From Clostridiales bacterium (GTDB lineage Bacteria > Bacillota > Clostridia > Christensenellales > Pumilibacteraceae): a DNA stretch of 58,049 nucleotides. Made by a program: the position numbers and the translations under genes. Under the pieces are notes generated by a model that ran no database searches, was not told where the DNA came from, and saw only the letters and a list, made by a program, of their open reading frames with translations. Location: NCBI GenBank assembly GCA_022508465.1, contig JAFLVB010000004.1:1-58049 (forward strand), read 5' to 3'. This document shows, one piece after another, positions 11,597-55,827 of the stretch (positions are counted from its first letter, which is position 1; each line of letters opens with the position of its first letter).

Positions 11597-11671
11597 GCGC
11601 CCATAGTTTAATGGATAGAGCATAGGTCTTCGGAACCTATTGTGAGGGTTCGAATCCTTCTGGGCGCGCCA
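11597..11671 (+). tRNA. tRNA-Arg (anticodon TCG)
   Basis: A full cloverleaf can be drawn. The acceptor stem GCGCCCA pairs with TGGGCGC. The anticodon stem TAGGT/ACCTA closes the loop CTTCGGA, giving anticodon TCG. The T arm is AGGGTTCGAATCCTT. CCA is encoded. A 16-nt copy of its 3' end recurs at 11911-11926. Confidence 0.93.
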
Positions 11672-11674
11672 TAG

Positions 11675-11710
11675 CAAAGCACCGCCATTTTATGGGCGGT
11701 GCTTTGCTAT
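11675..11710 (+). terminator. Terminator after tRNA-Arg
   Basis: CAAAGCACCGCC and GGGCGGTGCTTTG form a 12-bp stem immediately after the tRNA. Confidence 0.75.
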
Positions 11711-11926
11711 ATCCCCCGTAAGGACGAGGACAAAGGACTTCCAAAAATGCTTGCATTTTTGGAAAGAGGAGTAACCGACCAAAAACGGAAAGTCTTTAGC
11801 GTCAGCTATAAGACTTTCCGCAAAGGGAGAGTTACGACGAGGTTCGCGGTCGCCGCAGGTAAAGCGCTCAAATAAACGTATAATGTAGCTCGGCGACCAA
11901 GCGAAGCGCTATCCTTCTGGGCGCGC
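11711..11926 (+). repeat. Element bounded by a copy of the tRNA-Arg 3' end
   Basis: ATCCTTCTGGGCGCGC occurs as the tRNA 3' end (11654-11669) and again at 11911-11926. The DNA between holds several hairpins (11747-11762; a stem of CGGAAAGTCTT and AAGACTTTCCG near 11796-11822) and a GGTCGCCG...CGGCGACC pairing just before the copy. The middle part matches 8525-8615. Possible attachment-site duplication; no recombinase gene is present. Confidence 0.6.
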
Positions 11927-11944: not shown

Positions 11945-12085
11945 ATATAACCACTCCACACCATCACCACCGCATGCTCGTACTTCGTGGCGTTCGCGCC
12001 AAAGGCGCTCGGCTGAGCACAATATTTCTCGCTTTGCGGAGCCTCCCCCTCGATGCCTTCGGCAGGTGGAGGGTCATATAAGGAT
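11945..12085. repeat. GC-rich intergenic repeat fragments
   Basis: The stretch carries the complement of the recurring CGAACGCCACGAAGTACGAG module (11969-11988) and GCGGAGCCTCCCCCT, which is shared with 39614-39628. No gene is seen. Confidence 0.55.
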
Positions 12086-30801: not shown

Positions 30802-32208
30802 CTATTCCTTACCATTCCAGCAATAGGTGCACAGCTTGCAGGGAGAAATGCCCACAGACTCAACCATATCGTCAAGGCGATGGAAACCCAGCGACGTGAA
30901 TTTGAGTTGCTTGGAAATCTCTTCCACCATTTCCGCGTAGTTGCGGCTGTCCGGATTGGCGTAATCATCCAGAATCTTGCGGCTAACGTTCGGTCCTTCG
31001 CGGTCCTGAATTATGCGGCGTGTGATAAGATCAAGCTCTGAATCGGCGCGGGAGAAGTTAAGATACTTGCAGCCAAACAACAGAGGCGGACATGCAGGTC
31101 GGATATGAACCTCTTTTGCCCCACTCTTGTATAAAAGCTCGGTCGTTTCCCTAAGCTGGGTGCCGCGAACTATTGAATCGTCAATCAGCAATAGCCTCTG
31201 ATCATGAATGATATCCGGTACCGGAACGAGTTTCATGCGGGCTATAAGGTTGCGCTGGCTCTGCTTTGTAGGCATGAACGAGCGCGGCCATGTCGGCGTA
31301 TACTTGATAAACGGACGTGCAAACGGAATACCCGATTCGTTTGCATAACCGACGGCGTGCGCAGTACCCGAGTCGGGAACACCTGCTACAATATCGGTTT
31401 TTACGTTATCGCGACGAGCAAGCGCCGCACCACAGCGGTAGCGCATTGCCTCAACGTTGATGCCCTCGTATGTCGATGTCGGATAGCCGTAATAAACCCA
31501 CAGGAAGGAACAAATCTTCATTTCTTCCTTAGGCTCCAAGACGGTTTCTACACCCTCGGGAGTCATAAAGACGATTTCGGCCGGCTTAAGCTCTCGATAA
31601 TCGCTGTAGCCGAGGTTGAAGTATGCAAAACTTTCAAACGATACGCAATAGGCACCCTTCTTTTGTCCTATAGCGAGCGGCGTACGACCACGGTAATCCC
31701 TTGCGGCATAAATGCCATCGGGAGTCATGACGAGCATGGACATCGAGCCATCAATCATTTCCTGCGCAAAGCGAATACCTTCGACAATGTCGTTTTTCTG
31801 ATTGATAAGCGCTGCAACCAACTCGGTGGCATTGATAGTTCCGCCACTTGTTTCGAGGAAGTGAGTTCTTCCTGCCTTAAACGCTTGATCGGTAAGCTCG
31901 TCTAAATTATTTATTCTGCCTACCGTAGTAATGGCAAAGCTACCGAGGTGTGATCTCACGAGCAAAGGCTGAGGCTCGCTGTCAGAGATACAACCGATGC
32001 CGAGGTTGCCTTTAAGCTCCAAAAAGTCCTTTTCAAACTTGGTGCGGAAGGGCGAATTTTCTATATTGTGAATGGCACGGTCAAAACCCTTTTCTCCGTA
32101 AACCGCCATTCCTCCTCGCCGTGTGCCGAGATGAGAATGATAGTCTGTTCCGAAGAACAAGTCAAATACACAATCCGATTTGGAAACTACTCCAAAGATA
32201 CCACTCAT
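30802..32208 (-). CDS. Amidophosphoribosyltransferase-like protein (PurF homologue) with Ser at the nucleophile position
   Basis: A 468-residue protein with an N-terminal glutamine amidotransferase (Ntn) domain and a C-terminal phosphoribosyltransferase domain. The PRPP loop LLIDDSIVRGTQL and the C-terminal CKLCTYCWNG match PurF. Canonical PurF begins MCGI, and Cys becomes residue 1 after Met removal; here the start is MSGIFGVVS, so Ser replaces the catalytic Cys. Related MSG-type homologues are known in some anaerobes. It may use free ammonia, use Ser as an Ntn nucleophile, or act on another substrate. It is expressed from a tandem-promoter leader and is not in a pur operon. AGAGG precedes the ATG. 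Confidence 0.85.
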   Translation of the reverse strand: MSGIFGVVSKSDCVFDLFFGTDYHSHLGTRRGGMAVYGEKGFDRAIHNIENSPFRTKFEKDFLELKGNLGIGCISDSEPQPLLVRSHLGSFAITTVGRINNLDELTDQAFKAGRTHFLETSGGTINATELVAALINQKNDIVEGIRFAQEMIDGSMSMLVMTPDGIYAARDYRGRTPLAIGQKKGAYCVSFESFAYFNLGYSDYRELKPAEIVFMTPEGVETVLEPKEEMKICSFLWVYYGYPTSTYEGINVEAMRYRCGAALARRDNVKTDIVAGVPDSGTAHAVGYANESGIPFARPFIKYTPTWPRSFMPTKQSQRNLIARMKLVPVPDIIHDQRLLLIDDSIVRGTQLRETTELLYKSGAKEVHIRPACPPLLFGCKYLNFSRADSELDLITRRIIQDREGPNVSRKILDDYANPDSRNYAEMVEEISKQLKFTSLGFHRLDDMVESVGISPCKLCTYCWNGKE

Positions 32209-32644: not shown

Positions 32645-33009
32645 GGGGGTGTATTGGTTTCGACGGGGTTCTGTAAGGCTGAATATAAGCATGTGGTAGT
32701 GCGGCTACCTTAAAACGCAAATCAAAATAAACGCTAATAATCAAAAAACTGCAAGACCCGCTCTTGCGTTAGCTGCTTAATTTATCTTAGCAGTCGTTAC
32801 ACTGTCTTCCCTGCCGAGGGAGCTGTAATGTCAATCAGGCAGGCTACGGCTGATAAGTAGCGGCCCTCACTTATCAGCGGAATCTTAGGCCATGGGACAT
32901 ATGGATTCGTTTGCTAAAAGTATGTCCTAAGACAATAAGCAAACTAAACATGTAGAAGATTCAGTCAGAGGGATTTCGGAAGGGAGTTCGACTCTCCCCA
33001 CCTCCACCA
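32645..33009 (+). ncRNA. ssrA: Transfer-messenger RNA (tmRNA)
   Basis: The 5' end GGGGGTG pairs with CACCTCC before the 3' ACCA, forming the tRNA-like acceptor stem, and the T arm GGAGTTCGACTCTCC is present. The resume codon is the GCT at 32733. The encoded tag reads ANNQKTARPALALAA and ends at TAA 32778-32780, with the usual ALAA degradation signal. It rescues stalled ribosomes with SmpB. The last 15 nt recur at 33221-33235. Confidence 0.95.
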
Positions 33010-33235
33010 GCAGCGTGACGCTGCACCCATTGTCGCATCACAGCGCAGCGGAAGAGCAAGCTTTATTTCCGCGTAGCAGATGCAGACCATAAATATAAAA
33101 GCTACTCAAAGTAAACCTTTATATTTATTAAACAGGGAACATGCGCAAAAAAGCAGTGGGCGACCCAAGGAGCGCAGTGCTCAGCCGAGCCCAAGGCGAA
33201 CGCCACGAAGTACTGTCCGTTCCCCACCTCCACCA
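33010..33235 (+). repeat. Element bounded by a copy of the tmRNA 3' end
   Basis: TCCCCACCTCCACCA ends tmRNA (32995-33009) and recurs at 33221-33235. Just after tmRNA lies a GCAGCG/CGCTGC hairpin. Just before the copy is the CGAACGCCACGAAGTAC module that is dispersed in the window. Same organisation as behind tRNA-Arg and tRNA-Ser. Confidence 0.65.
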
Positions 33236-45497: not shown

Positions 45498-45586
45498 GGA
45501 GCGGTATCGAAGTGGTCATAACGGCCCTGACTCGAAATCAGGTAGCCTGAAAGGGCTCGTGGGTTCGAATCCCACCCGCTCCGCCA
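45498..45586 (+). tRNA. tRNA-Ser (anticodon CGA)
   Basis: Acceptor GGAGCGG pairs with CCGCTCC. The anticodon stem CCTGA/TCAGG closes the loop CTCGAAA, giving CGA. The long variable arm (TAGCCTGAAAGGGCTC region) is typical of tRNA-Ser. CCA is encoded. A 19-nt copy of its 3' end lies at 45742-45760. Confidence 0.93.
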
Positions 45587-45594
45587 AATAAAAA

Positions 45595-45621
45595 ATGACA
45601 CCCTTGTGGTGTCTTTTTTTA
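45595..45621 (+). terminator. Terminator after tRNA-Ser
   Basis: GACACC and GGTGTC stem with T7. Confidence 0.85.
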
Positions 45622-45760
45622 TTTGCTGTAGTGGTGGGACAAGAATCATTGCTTTAGCAATCGGTTCGCGGTGGCGACGACGAAAATCTTATCCAAGCGT
45701 CTTGACGCTACACTCGCCACCAAGTGAACGAAGCGAACGCCATCCCACCCGCTCCGCCAA
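45622..45760 (+). repeat. Element bounded by a copy of the tRNA-Ser 3' end
   Basis: ATCCCACCCGCTCCGCCAA occurs at 45569-45587 and again at 45742-45760. Before the copy lie a GGTGGCGA...TCGCCACC pairing and AACGAAGCGAACGCC, matching the position and shape of the GGTCGCCG...CGGCGACC pairing in the tRNA-Arg element, with compensated bases. Confidence 0.65.
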
Positions 45761-45952: not shown

Positions 45953-46837
45953 ATGACTTTTGCTAATAAATTGAAAGCACTCCGCAAGCAGTCTAATATG
46001 TCGCAGGAAAAACTTGCGGAGAAACTCTGCGTATCAAGACAGGCAATCACAAAATGGGAAACCGAGGAGGGGATTCCGGATATAGGAAATATTATTGCGA
46101 TTTCTGCTTTGTTTAATGTCTCTATTGACGAGCTTCTATCCGATGAAAAAATTGTAAAGCCAATCGACTATATTTTTGAAAGCGTTACAGAATATGATAT
46201 TGACGCACCAAAGCACTATGATTTGAAATTAGGCGGTGCAAAAAAACTTGTATTATCAGGGTATGATGGTGAAAAAATCCGTGTCCGTTTGGCTTCCAAT
46301 ACATTACAAACTCTCCAAAATGATTTTAAGGTCAAAATCGATGATATAAAAAGGAGAATCGATATAGAGATAATCCGTAAAAATGGGATTACAGAAGCGA
46401 TCGCAAAGGAAGCGATTACAATTTTTGTTCAAATCCCATCACCTTACATTGGGCATATTGAATTAGCTGCTAATGTAGAAACAGTCGAGCTCAACTCTTT
46501 AGAATGCGATAATATCGAACTTGATATAAAAACCTCCAATGTAATATTAGACGGCATACTCGGCAACGTGGAGATCAACTGTAATCTTGATATGAAGATT
46601 GTTTGTCGCACTTTGAACGGCGAAGTTTCAATTAATCAAGTGTCGGCTACTTCAAAAATATTTGTTCCAAAGGGAACAATTTTTACCGCTGTCACAAAAG
46701 GGATTGGCACAAGTATATCTTATGAGAAAGACGAACAACAAGTGAGTGCGTTTTCTACTCAGGCTGTTGAGAACAGAATTGAGCTGAATGGAATTAAGAG
46801 TGAACTTATCATCTGTACTTCTGAAGCGGAAATATAA
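45953..46837 (+). CDS. XRE regulator fused to a DUF4097-like beta-helix
   Basis: A 294-residue protein. Residues 1-62 are a clear HTH_3 domain (NMSQEKLAEKLCVSRQAITKWE). Residues about 80-290 form a beta-rich DUF4097-like region with short repeats (VETVELNSLECDNIELDIKTSNVIL-type strands). No membrane helix is seen, so the beta-helix would be cytosolic, unlike the usual surface DUF4097. AGGAGA precedes the ATG. It is the only gene between tRNA-Ser and a second copy of the tRNA-Ser flank, and so is likely cargo of an inserted segment. Confidence 0.8.
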   Translation: MTFANKLKALRKQSNMSQEKLAEKLCVSRQAITKWETEEGIPDIGNIIAISALFNVSIDELLSDEKIVKPIDYIFESVTEYDIDAPKHYDLKLGGAKKLVLSGYDGEKIRVRLASNTLQTLQNDFKVKIDDIKRRIDIEIIRKNGITEAIAKEAITIFVQIPSPYIGHIELAANVETVELNSLECDNIELDIKTSNVILDGILGNVEINCNLDMKIVCRTLNGEVSINQVSATSKIFVPKGTIFTAVTKGIGTSISYEKDEQQVSAFSTQAVENRIELNGIKSELIICTSEAEI

Positions 46838-46905: not shown

Positions 46906-47020
46906 ATTCTTACCACTCCGCCAAATAAAAAGAGGCATTTGTATGCCTCTTTTTTGTTGCGTCGCTTGGTGGGAGCGACCAATTTTGTATAGTAAAAATC
47001 GGTTCACGGTGGCCGTATAT
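46906..47020 (+). repeat. Diverged copy of the tRNA-Ser 3' end and its terminator region
   Basis: CACTCCGCCAAATAAAAA, then a new hairpin (GAGGCATTTGTATGCCTC plus T6), then GGTGGGA and TCGGTTCACGGTGGC, in the same order as 45573-45690, where the parts are CGCTCCGCCAAATAAAAA, a different hairpin, GGTGGGA and TCGGTTCGCGGTGGC. Confidence 0.65.
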
Positions 47021-53949: not shown

Positions 53950-55827
53950 TTACTCATCTTTAAAATCACCGTCGGTGCAATGGATTGTATGTTTATCTAA
54001 ATAGCCGCCTGCGTTCCTATCCCAATCTCTACCCTTTTCAATAGACTGCCATTGAGCAAATGTCCCGTTATAAATAATTTCATATAAGTGCCTGCACCAT
54101 TCGAACGCACTATCTCCTATACTTGTTACACTATCGGGAATTGTTATGCATACTAAGCTACCGCATTCAGCGAACGCATAGTCTCCTATGCTTGTTACGC
54201 CATTACCAATTGTTACACTCTCTAAGCTATAACAATAACGAAACGCGCAGTCTCCTATGCTTGTTACGCCATTACCGATTGTTACACTCTCTAAGCTATT
54301 GCAATAAGCAAACGCATAATCTCCTATGCTTGTTACACTGTCGGGAATTATTATACTTACTAAGCTACTGCATTTAGCGAACGCCCCCCATTCTATGCTC
54401 GTTATGCTATCGGGGATTGTTATGCTCTCTAAACTGTTGCACCATTCGAACGCACTATTCCCTATACTTGTTACACTGTCGGGGATCGTTATACTCTTTA
54501 AGCTGTTGCAATAAGCAAACGTACCAATTCCTATGCTTGTTACACTATCGGGGATCGTTATGCTCTCTAAACTACTGCATCCATCGAACGCACTATTCCC
54601 TATACTTGTTACACTGTCGGGAATTGTTATACTCTTTAAGCTTTTGCACCATTCGAACGCACTATTCCCTATACTTGTTACACTGTCGGGAATTGTTATA
54701 CTCTTTAAGCTTTTGCACCATTCGAACGCACTATCTCCTATACTTGTTACGCTGTCGGGAATTGTTATACTCTCTAAGCTCTCGCACCAATAGAACGCTC
54801 TATCTCCTATGCTTGTTACACTGTCGGGAATTGTTATACTCTCTAAGCTCTCGCACCATTCGAACGCACTATTCCCTATACTTGTTACACTGTCGGGAAT
54901 TGTTATGCTTACTAAGATACTGCATCCAGAGAACGCATAATCCCCGATACTCGTTACACTATCGGAAATTGTTATGCTCTTTAAGCTACTGCGCTCGAAC
55001 GCTCTATCTCCTATGCTATCTCCACTAGTTATTACTACTGTTTTTAGATTGCTATTTTTTATATATTTTGCAGCTATTGCCGGTATTATCGCATTTTGAA
55101 TCGGACATCCAAGGAACGCACCATATCCTATGCTCGTTACACTGTCGGGGATCGTTATACTCCCTAAGCTACTACATTTCTCGAACGCCCAATCTCCTAT
55201 GCTTGTTACATTGTCGGGGATCGTTATGCTCTCTAAGCTACTGCAGCTAACAAACGCACGACCTCCTATGCTTGTTACGCTATCGGGAATCGTTATACTC
55301 TCTAAGCTACTGCACTTACAGAACGCCCCCCATTCTATTCTCGTTACGCTATCGGGAATCGTTATACTCTCTAAGCTACTGCAGCCATAGAACGCCCAAA
55401 TCCCAATGCTTGTTACACTGTCGGGGATCGTTATGCTCTCTAAGCTACTGCAGCCATAGAACGCATAATCTCCTATGCTTGTTACACTGTCGGGAATTGT
55501 TATGCTTACTAAGCTACTACATCTCCCGAACGCACTATCTCCTATACTTGTTACGCTATCGGGGATCATTATACTCTCTAAGCTACTGCACTCATAGAAC
55601 GCCCCCCCTTCTATGCTCGTTACTTTTACTTTGTCAATTTCTGAGGGAATATCTATGGTTGTAGCTGAATTATCAACCAAACCTACTATAGTGCAACTGC
55701 CATTTTCGATGATATAAGCTAAATTACCATAAGTATGAACTTTTGTGGAATTCGATCCACATGCCATAAGGCAAGCACAGAGTGAAGCAAGTATGCATAT
55801 TAGACAGACTACGGTTAATTTCTTCAT
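53950..55827 (-). CDS. BspA-type leucine-rich repeat lipoprotein with near-identical repeats
   Basis: A 625-residue lipoprotein. The signal peptide ends at a MAC lipobox (residue 23). After a short lead-in come about twenty LRR_5 repeats of exactly 23 residues, with consensus SLESITIPDSVTSIGDSAFEWC. One degenerate unit, near residue 245, breaks the array. The C-terminal block (FAQWQSIEKG...HCTDG) is usual for this family. The 69-bp DNA repeats are almost identical; two adjacent copies near 54600-54735 are the same over about 60 bp. Surface adhesion or ligand binding is likely. AAGGAG precedes the ATG. Confidence 0.92.
   Translation of the reverse strand: MKKLTVVCLICILASLCACLMACGSNSTKVHTYGNLAYIIENGSCTIVGLVDNSATTIDIPSEIDKVKVTSIEGGAFYECSSLESIMIPDSVTSIGDSAFGRCSSLVSITIPDSVTSIGDYAFYGCSSLESITIPDSVTSIGIWAFYGCSSLESITIPDSVTRIEWGAFCKCSSLESITIPDSVTSIGGRAFVSCSSLESITIPDNVTSIGDWAFEKCSSLGSITIPDSVTSIGYGAFLGCPIQNAIIPAIAAKYIKNSNLKTVVITSGDSIGDRAFERSSLKSITISDSVTSIGDYAFSGCSILVSITIPDSVTSIGNSAFEWCESLESITIPDSVTSIGDRAFYWCESLESITIPDSVTSIGDSAFEWCKSLKSITIPDSVTSIGNSAFEWCKSLKSITIPDSVTSIGNSAFDGCSSLESITIPDSVTSIGIGTFAYCNSLKSITIPDSVTSIGNSAFEWCNSLESITIPDSITSIEWGAFAKCSSLVSIIIPDSVTSIGDYAFAYCNSLESVTIGNGVTSIGDCAFRYCYSLESVTIGNGVTSIGDYAFAECGSLVCITIPDSVTSIGDSAFEWCRHLYEIIYNGTFAQWQSIEKGRDWDRNAGGYLDKHTIHCTDGDFKDE

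Follow-up and report, generated by a model that had tools for sequence, protein, structure and literature searches.

Small non-coding units of DNA that stand beside essential RNA genes in one genus of uncultured Clostridia-like bacteria, and leave these genes unbroken, look like mobile DNA of a new kind. The core of a unit is a palindromic module (A or B) inside an extra partial copy of the host tRNA. Units of this anatomy, with arms matched to the host gene and a covarying module stem, occur beside many isoacceptors in 10 genomes, differ between species and form tandem arrays. We tentatively read them, at somewhat less than an even chance, as palindromic elements targeted to the T-loop, whose insertion goes along with two duplications of the tRNA end, one inverted and one direct. 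When mobile DNA is found at tRNA genes, the usual explanation is an integrase specific for one tRNA. One structural core beside many isoacceptors, each time with the end of the host gene, would mean insertion into essential single-copy RNA genes by target copying, which would alter the reading of tRNA 3' fragments as island boundaries. The units also offer a directly testable system for gain, loss and repair at defined sites.

The window, that is the whole stretch of 58,049 nt that was analyzed, is one contig of an 88-contig, 1.55-Mb genome (93% complete) and contains exactly three stable RNA genes (ARAGORN and Rfam). The initial annotation had noticed exact copies of the 3' end after tRNA-Arg, tmRNA and tRNA-Ser, and all three were found where it had placed them, at 240, 212 and 156 bp from the respective gene ends. 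The features are listed below, R1 being a covariance model of module A and R2 a search model of module B.

11597..11671, + strand: tRNA-Arg(TCG), intact host gene (ARAGORN, Rfam RF00005)
11672..11709, + strand: terminator hairpin 3' of tRNA-Arg, TAGCAAAGCACCGCC/GGCGGTGCTTTGCTA (sequence)
11710..11730, + strand: left arm of the Arg unit, a diverged inverted copy of the tRNA-Arg 3' end (sequence, fold)
11841..11910, + strand: T-loop-like GGTTCG and module A of the Arg unit (R1, 54.3 bits, E 3.4e-12 in the window)
11911..11926, + strand: tRNA-Arg 3'-end copy, 16 nt, starting at tRNA position 59 (exact match)
11982..12017, + strand: module B palindrome, 56 bp past the Arg unit (R2, 30.7 bits)
32645..33009, + strand: tmRNA, intact host gene (RF00023, 162.5 bits; ARAGORN)
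33180..33210, - strand: module B palindrome within the tmRNA unit (R2, 26.6 bits)
33221..33235, + strand: tmRNA 3'-end copy, 15 nt (exact match)
45498..45586, + strand: tRNA-Ser(CGA), intact host gene (ARAGORN, Rfam)
45587..45625, + strand: terminator hairpin with long A/T arms, 3' of tRNA-Ser (sequence)
45626..45639, + strand: left arm of the Ser unit, an inverted copy of the tRNA-Ser acceptor and T-stem (GTAGTGGTGGGA versus GGAGCGGGTGGGA; folds onto the 3' copy)
45648..45661, + strand: small hairpin ATTGCTTTAGCAAT of the Ser unit, with a counterpart in most module A units (sequence)
45663..45741, + strand: GGTTCG and module A of the Ser unit, box CCAAGTGAACGAAGCGAACGCC (R1, 82.3 bits, E 1.4e-19 in the window)
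45742..45760, + strand: tRNA-Ser 3'-end copy, 19 nt, starting at position 59 (exact match)
45953..46837, + strand: HTH_3 protein, possible cargo between two Ser units (Pfam HTH_3, E 4.5e-18)
46912..47014, + strand: second Ser-type unit, decayed: ACCACTCCGCCA, terminator, TGGTGGGA, GGTTCACGGTGGCC (sequence; under the R1 threshold)

The stems with compensated bases that had been described ahead of the copies at tRNA-Arg and tRNA-Ser are both exact: GGTCGCCG (11848-11855) pairs with CGGCGACC (11891-11898), and GGTGGCGA (45670-45677) with TCGCCACC (45714-45721). The left arm of the Arg unit, CCGTAAGGAC, is complementary to GTCCTTACGG, which resembles the 3' copy ATCCTTCTGGG, and is paired in the RNA fold of the unit. 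At the tmRNA, the copy extends to 16 of 18 identical positions over a longer stretch, and the CGAACGCCACGAAG reported ahead of it is present at 33197, as well as at 11983 and 39848 elsewhere in the window. It belongs to module B, a palindrome of the form ACTYCGCTWCGCTCCGTGGCGTTCG-loop-CTCGGCTGAG that is related to module A. The three cases had been taken for one family; this holds for Arg and Ser, which share module A, but the tmRNA carries module B, so that the window contains two related sub-types. Adjoining the tmRNA, at 30802-32208, lies a glutamine amidotransferase/phosphoribosyltransferase-like protein whose relatives in Lachnospiraceae and further gut Clostridia are 70-78% identical, which may reflect recent horizontal transfer. 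A BspA-type leucine-rich repeat protein (LRR_5) is encoded at 53950-55827.

The frequency of such copies was assessed at 86 distinct terminal tRNAs (those with no second tRNA close downstream) from eight genomes of the genus. A copy was counted when it matched the tRNA's own 3' end exactly and lay 20-400 bp downstream, and 7040 swapped tRNA/flank pairs served as control. Own-end copies of at least 10, 12 and 14 nt were found at 27, 21 and 20 of the 86 tRNAs, whereas the mismatched pairs gave 0.17%, 0.01% and 0/7040, respectively. The last comparison (20/86 against 0/7040) rules out chance matching. An assembly artefact is likewise ruled out by recurrence in 10 independent assemblies, with many copies internal to contigs and mutually diverged. 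In five control genomes outside the genus, one of 15 terminal tRNAs had a copy (tRNA-Ile of G041). The check downstream of other tRNAs, which the initial annotation had proposed, revealed copies of at least 12 nt at 7 of the 16 testable terminal tRNAs of the window's own genome. Further copies in this genome belong to Arg(ACG) (23 nt), Glu(CTC) and Gly(CCC) (19 nt each), Leu(CAG) and Ser(GCT) (14 nt each) and, in shorter form, to Leu(CAA) (11 nt) and Ser(TGA) (10 nt). Across the genome, the copies lie 69-240 bp from the gene end; clustered tRNAs and several single tRNAs of the same genome have none. Upstream, 8/86 tRNAs have a copy of their 5' part that is at least 14 nt long; the corresponding rate for mismatched pairs is 0.014%.

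A typical unit runs from the tRNA 3' end through a terminator, an inverted arm, a small hairpin (for example ATTTTTGC-GCAAAAAT), the 5' half of the T-stem with TTCR, and module A to the direct copy of the tRNA 3' end, which extends from position 58/61 to the CCA end. Units measure about 100-250 bp and most are without any gene. The terminators, recognised by eye, often have long A and T arms, and a second one commonly follows the copy. An inverted copy and terminator ahead of the module are found in module A units and in some B units. The inverted tRNA-end copy after the terminator, the terminators themselves, tandem repetition (Gly, Leu, Thr, Ile) and the upstream 5'-part copies are additions to the initial annotation.

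Module A has the consensus CGGTNGC-(0 to 45 nt)-GCNACCAAGGGAGCGWAGCGACCGCC. R1 detected 10 significant copies in the genome, all 10 adjoining tRNA genes, and the module occurs in all eight genomes of the genus (this one and seven others) and in two other genera of the family. Its hosts include Leu(CAG, AAG), Ser(CGA, TGA, GCT), Arg(ACG, TCG), Gly(CCC), Val(GAC, CAC), Ala(CGC, GGC), Glu(CTC), Thr(CGT) and Trp; units stand at no fewer than 14 isoacceptors. With strict filters, no module A was found outside the family in 151 order-level and 391 class-level genomes, the order containing at least 25 sampled families. Over 34 units, 98.5% of the cells of the stem alignment are standard pairs, 45 cells are changed on both sides and six of the eight pairs are compensated, whereas slid controls reach at most 54% pairing. 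The loop is free to vary, and three units have almost none; a GCGWAGCGA box is kept, GAAG being commoner than GTAG. Such a compensated stem with a free loop argues for recognition of the structure, as a DNA single strand or as RNA. Core identity is 0.66 both within the genome and between genomes, and core similarity carries no signal of recent bursts of spread. At Arg(ACG), the T-arm reads GGAGTTCGAA on the other strand and the module points the opposite way to the tRNA, as would be expected if the T-loop sequence determined the insertion site. A phage attP origin was rejected, as the patterns of modules A and B matched only two chance coding sites in IMG/VR.

The inverted arm spans tRNA positions of about 75 to 49, that is the T-arm and the 3' acceptor strand. 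In 13 units, the arms fit their own host tRNA better than other hosts (0/5000 permutations); those of Arg(TCG) of G003, Gly(CCC) and Leu(CAG) of G004 are no better than chance, and three or four units are without a clear arm. The Leu(CAG) arm GTGCGAAGGATGGGG complements the copy exactly, the CC of CCA included, and the arm GGCGGAGGCAGAGGG of Ser(TGA) of G001 reads GAGGG where the tRNA's own T-stem 5' strand reads GGGGG. Both arms are exact reverse complements of the 3' strand, also where the natural 5' strand has a wobble. Because they contain the complement of CC of CCA and the T-stem bases of the 3' strand, the arm is an inverted copy rather than the remnant of a 5' acceptor strand. A 12-bp acceptor/T-stem helix with 3' CCA is retained in many units. 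Whole-unit DNA folding is strong in one unit (z -9.3) and weak in three (z -0.96 to -2.5).

R2 gave 49 matches to module B in the genome, six of them in the window and the majority away from tRNA genes, and matched other genera of the family as well. Units with module B are found at tmRNA, Glu, Leu and Thr. The module mostly follows AAT, GAT, TAT or TGT, without duplication of the target. One full-length copy of Thr(GGT) in G007 is split by it between positions 8 and 9, again with no duplicated target, and the intact gene 190 bp upstream represents the empty site. Elsewhere it lies in the D-loop (Leu(TAA), Leu(CAG)), the anticodon loop (Thr(CGT)) or the T-loop (Glu(CTC)). Over all units, the insertion point in the copy is the T-loop (57|58-59) and, less often, the D-loop, position 8/9 or the anticodon loop.

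Empty sites in relatives, another prediction of the initial annotation, are borne out, since the same tRNA is occupied in some species and bare in others. All comparison genomes are assemblies, one per species. The Trp unit is present in G000 and G004 and absent from G002, G003, G005 and G007; the Leu(CAG) unit is present in G000 and G004 and absent from G002; the Gly(CCC) unit is present in G000 and absent from G006 and G025. Ser(GCT) has differing units in G000 and G002 and none in G004. G002 and G005 share a syntenic Glu(CTC) locus, at which additional units set them apart. Turnover is read from this presence and absence between species, each represented by one assembly; neither a strain-level polymorphism nor an insertion junction was seen, and the units are at most putatively mobile today. 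The earlier picture of tiny elements that restore the RNA end therefore stands in outline (small non-coding units, an intact gene, presence that varies between species), but the tyrosine integrase that had been proposed to move them is so far not supported; the presence of one core at many isoacceptors, each with ends matched to its host, speaks against such a mover, as do the inverted arm and the lack of a Phage_integrase match in G003.

Tandem arrays of units were observed at Gly, Leu, Glu, Thr and Ile, and full-length pseudo-tRNA copies broken up by module B at Thr(GGT), Leu(TAA) and Ile(GAT). At tRNA-Ile of G001 and G006 (L101, L100), downstream of tRNA-Ala, arrays of full-length pseudo-copies flank the intact gene, and hairpins occupy their anticodon loop (CAACATTGCGTTAGCAA) and T-loop. 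Directly upstream of tRNA-Glu of G001 (L118), the first 49 nt of the gene occur twice in tandem, partly mutated and each with a leader. Downstream of tRNA-Ser(TGA) in G001, three genes lie between two units, the second of which has a remnant of the tRNA-Ser 3' end at its head; the genes (L324:1369-4545) encode an HTH protein and two unknown proteins and are possibly cargo or a defence island. A sequence of roughly 60 nt, TTTTACTGGGTTTTCAGCGTTTTCTACC..., is common to two genera (L041 and L049, in G002 and G022). Its G002 copy is fused to the anticodon-to-3' half of tRNA-Ser(TGA), and the stretch looks like the end of an ordinary integrase island.

In our preferred reading of T-loop-targeted palindromic elements, the module would travel either as a single strand in folded form or through short-homology copying from one T-arm to another, for which the near-identical T-arms of different tRNAs (GGTTCR...TCC) would supply the homology. 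Insertion would go together with fold-back template switches at the hairpins of terminator and module. Two such switches, at the terminator and the small hairpin, would yield the order forward, terminator, inverted, hairpin, forward, seen most clearly in Leu(CAG), Glu(CTC) and Ser(TGA). Both the tRNA 3' end and the terminator would be copied once inverted and once direct, which would leave the upstream gene whole and make the insertion tolerable. Because host-matched ends are found at many tRNAs, the ends are probably copied from the target rather than carried in.

A possible though rather unlikely alternative is that a tyrosine recombinase whose crossover lies in the T-loop acts in trans on the units, which would then be non-autonomous integrative elements; the unit would represent attP and the downstream copy the displaced tRNA fragment. 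Integrases are known to use the T-loop as a crossover subsite, and tDNA islands have a downstream 3' fragment as their standard signature (PMC4383910); the units share both. The copies begin at tRNA positions 58-61, units have a terminator and form tandem arrays, two units flank cargo at tRNA-Ser in G001 and perhaps also in the window, and an integrase gene adjoins a tRNA-Thr in the same genome. At L173:6200-6655, the 3' end of a tyrosine integrase gene stands after tRNA-Thr(CGT) where the contig stops, and upstream there are degenerate copies resembling tRNA-Thr. Ordinary integrase elements carry a fragment of a single target, whereas here one core occurs at 14 or more isoacceptors with host-matched ends, and we know of no role for an inverted arm in ordinary att sites. 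Insertions in the D-loop and at position 8/9, the upstream 5' copies, and the geneless state of most units, about 10 times shorter than the 2-kb floor for tDNA islands, argue further against it. Boundaries in the T-loop, 3' copies, arrays and cargo would be accounted for by an integrase, whereas the inverted arm and the host range would not unless a folded site is used; a recombinase acting on a folded single strand, as at integron attC, would explain both arm and hairpin.

The enzyme searches bear on this point. No match to Phage_integrase was found in G003 (88% complete), Y1_Tnp (PF01797) is missing in 7/8 genomes of the genus and interrupted by a stop in its single occurrence, and RVT_1 is missing in 7/8, the window's genome included. 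Together, these results point to no enzyme common to all carriers, each absence being weak alone in incomplete assemblies. Reverse transcription, self-primed at the terminator and halting at the T-loop, would fit the copy starts at 58-61 but was rejected with RVT_1 in only 1/8 genomes. IS200/IS605 or RAYT transposition was set aside on the missing Y1, although an element could outlive its enzyme.

Passive decay appears quite unlikely. Tandem duplication of tRNA loci through ordinary recombination would leave spares that tolerate a genome-wide REP-like palindrome and partial deletion, with no targeting of tRNAs. The full-length pseudo-tRNAs split by module B at Thr(GGT), Leu(TAA) and Ile(GAT), the upstream 5'-part copies and the interspersion of module B (49 matches) are in line with it, but module A stands only at tRNA genes, its inverted host-matched arm and compensated stem would be unexpected, and the frequency is far above that of the control genomes. 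Distinctly improbable, too, is a complete folded-single-strand recombination system targeting tRNAs. There, the pairing of inverted arm and direct copy would rebuild a double-stranded T-arm/acceptor site, the covarying module hairpin would be the recognition structure, and every tRNA gene would be a potential target from which the element takes a fresh copy, while some arrays would hold cargo genes between their units. Least of all do we expect functional RNA genes or cis elements (tRNA-like minihelices processed by tRNA enzymes, decoys or regulators): the acceptor and T-arm with enlarged T-loop, the 12-bp helix with 3' CCA in many units, the compensated hairpin and the terminators on both sides would suit them, but presence at the same tRNA varies between close species, a terminator stands between unit and tRNA, loops and arms vary freely and the D and anticodon parts are usually missing.

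That no named family fits, as the initial annotation had remarked, agrees with literature searches for bacterial tRNA pseudo-copies with palindromes in open-licence papers, which returned none. REP sequences carry a conserved GTAG or CGTC tag at the hairpin foot. Like REP/BIME sequences with their RAYT enzymes, the units have short palindromes in many copies, compensated stems and possibly a short insertion-point preference (PMC3733652). Module B, with its 49 matches, is an interspersed imperfect palindrome as REP sequences with RAYT are, but the Y1/RAYT gene is missing in 7/8 genomes of the genus and module A differs in being limited to tRNA ends and flanked by host-derived arms. Rickettsia palindromic elements are also short palindromes inside essential genes; in the cited study (PMC3767692) they sit within protein genes and not RNA genes, whereas here extra tRNA copies are made and interrupted. 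With tDNA islands of the Islander type, the units share the intact tRNA or tmRNA, the same-orientation 3' fragment downstream, the T-loop subsite and possible tandem arrays (PMC4383910), but they lack an integrase gene, use the same core at many isoacceptors and have a host-matched inverted arm; at 100-250 bp they also fall short of the 2-200 kb length criterion for such islands (PMC4383910). By analogy, integron attC sites resemble the units in their structure-conserved stem, free loop, arrays and possible cargo between sites. No intI-attI platform came to light. The folding and covariation of the units would agree with an attC-like folded site, one whose ends, unlike those of attC, are derived from tRNA.
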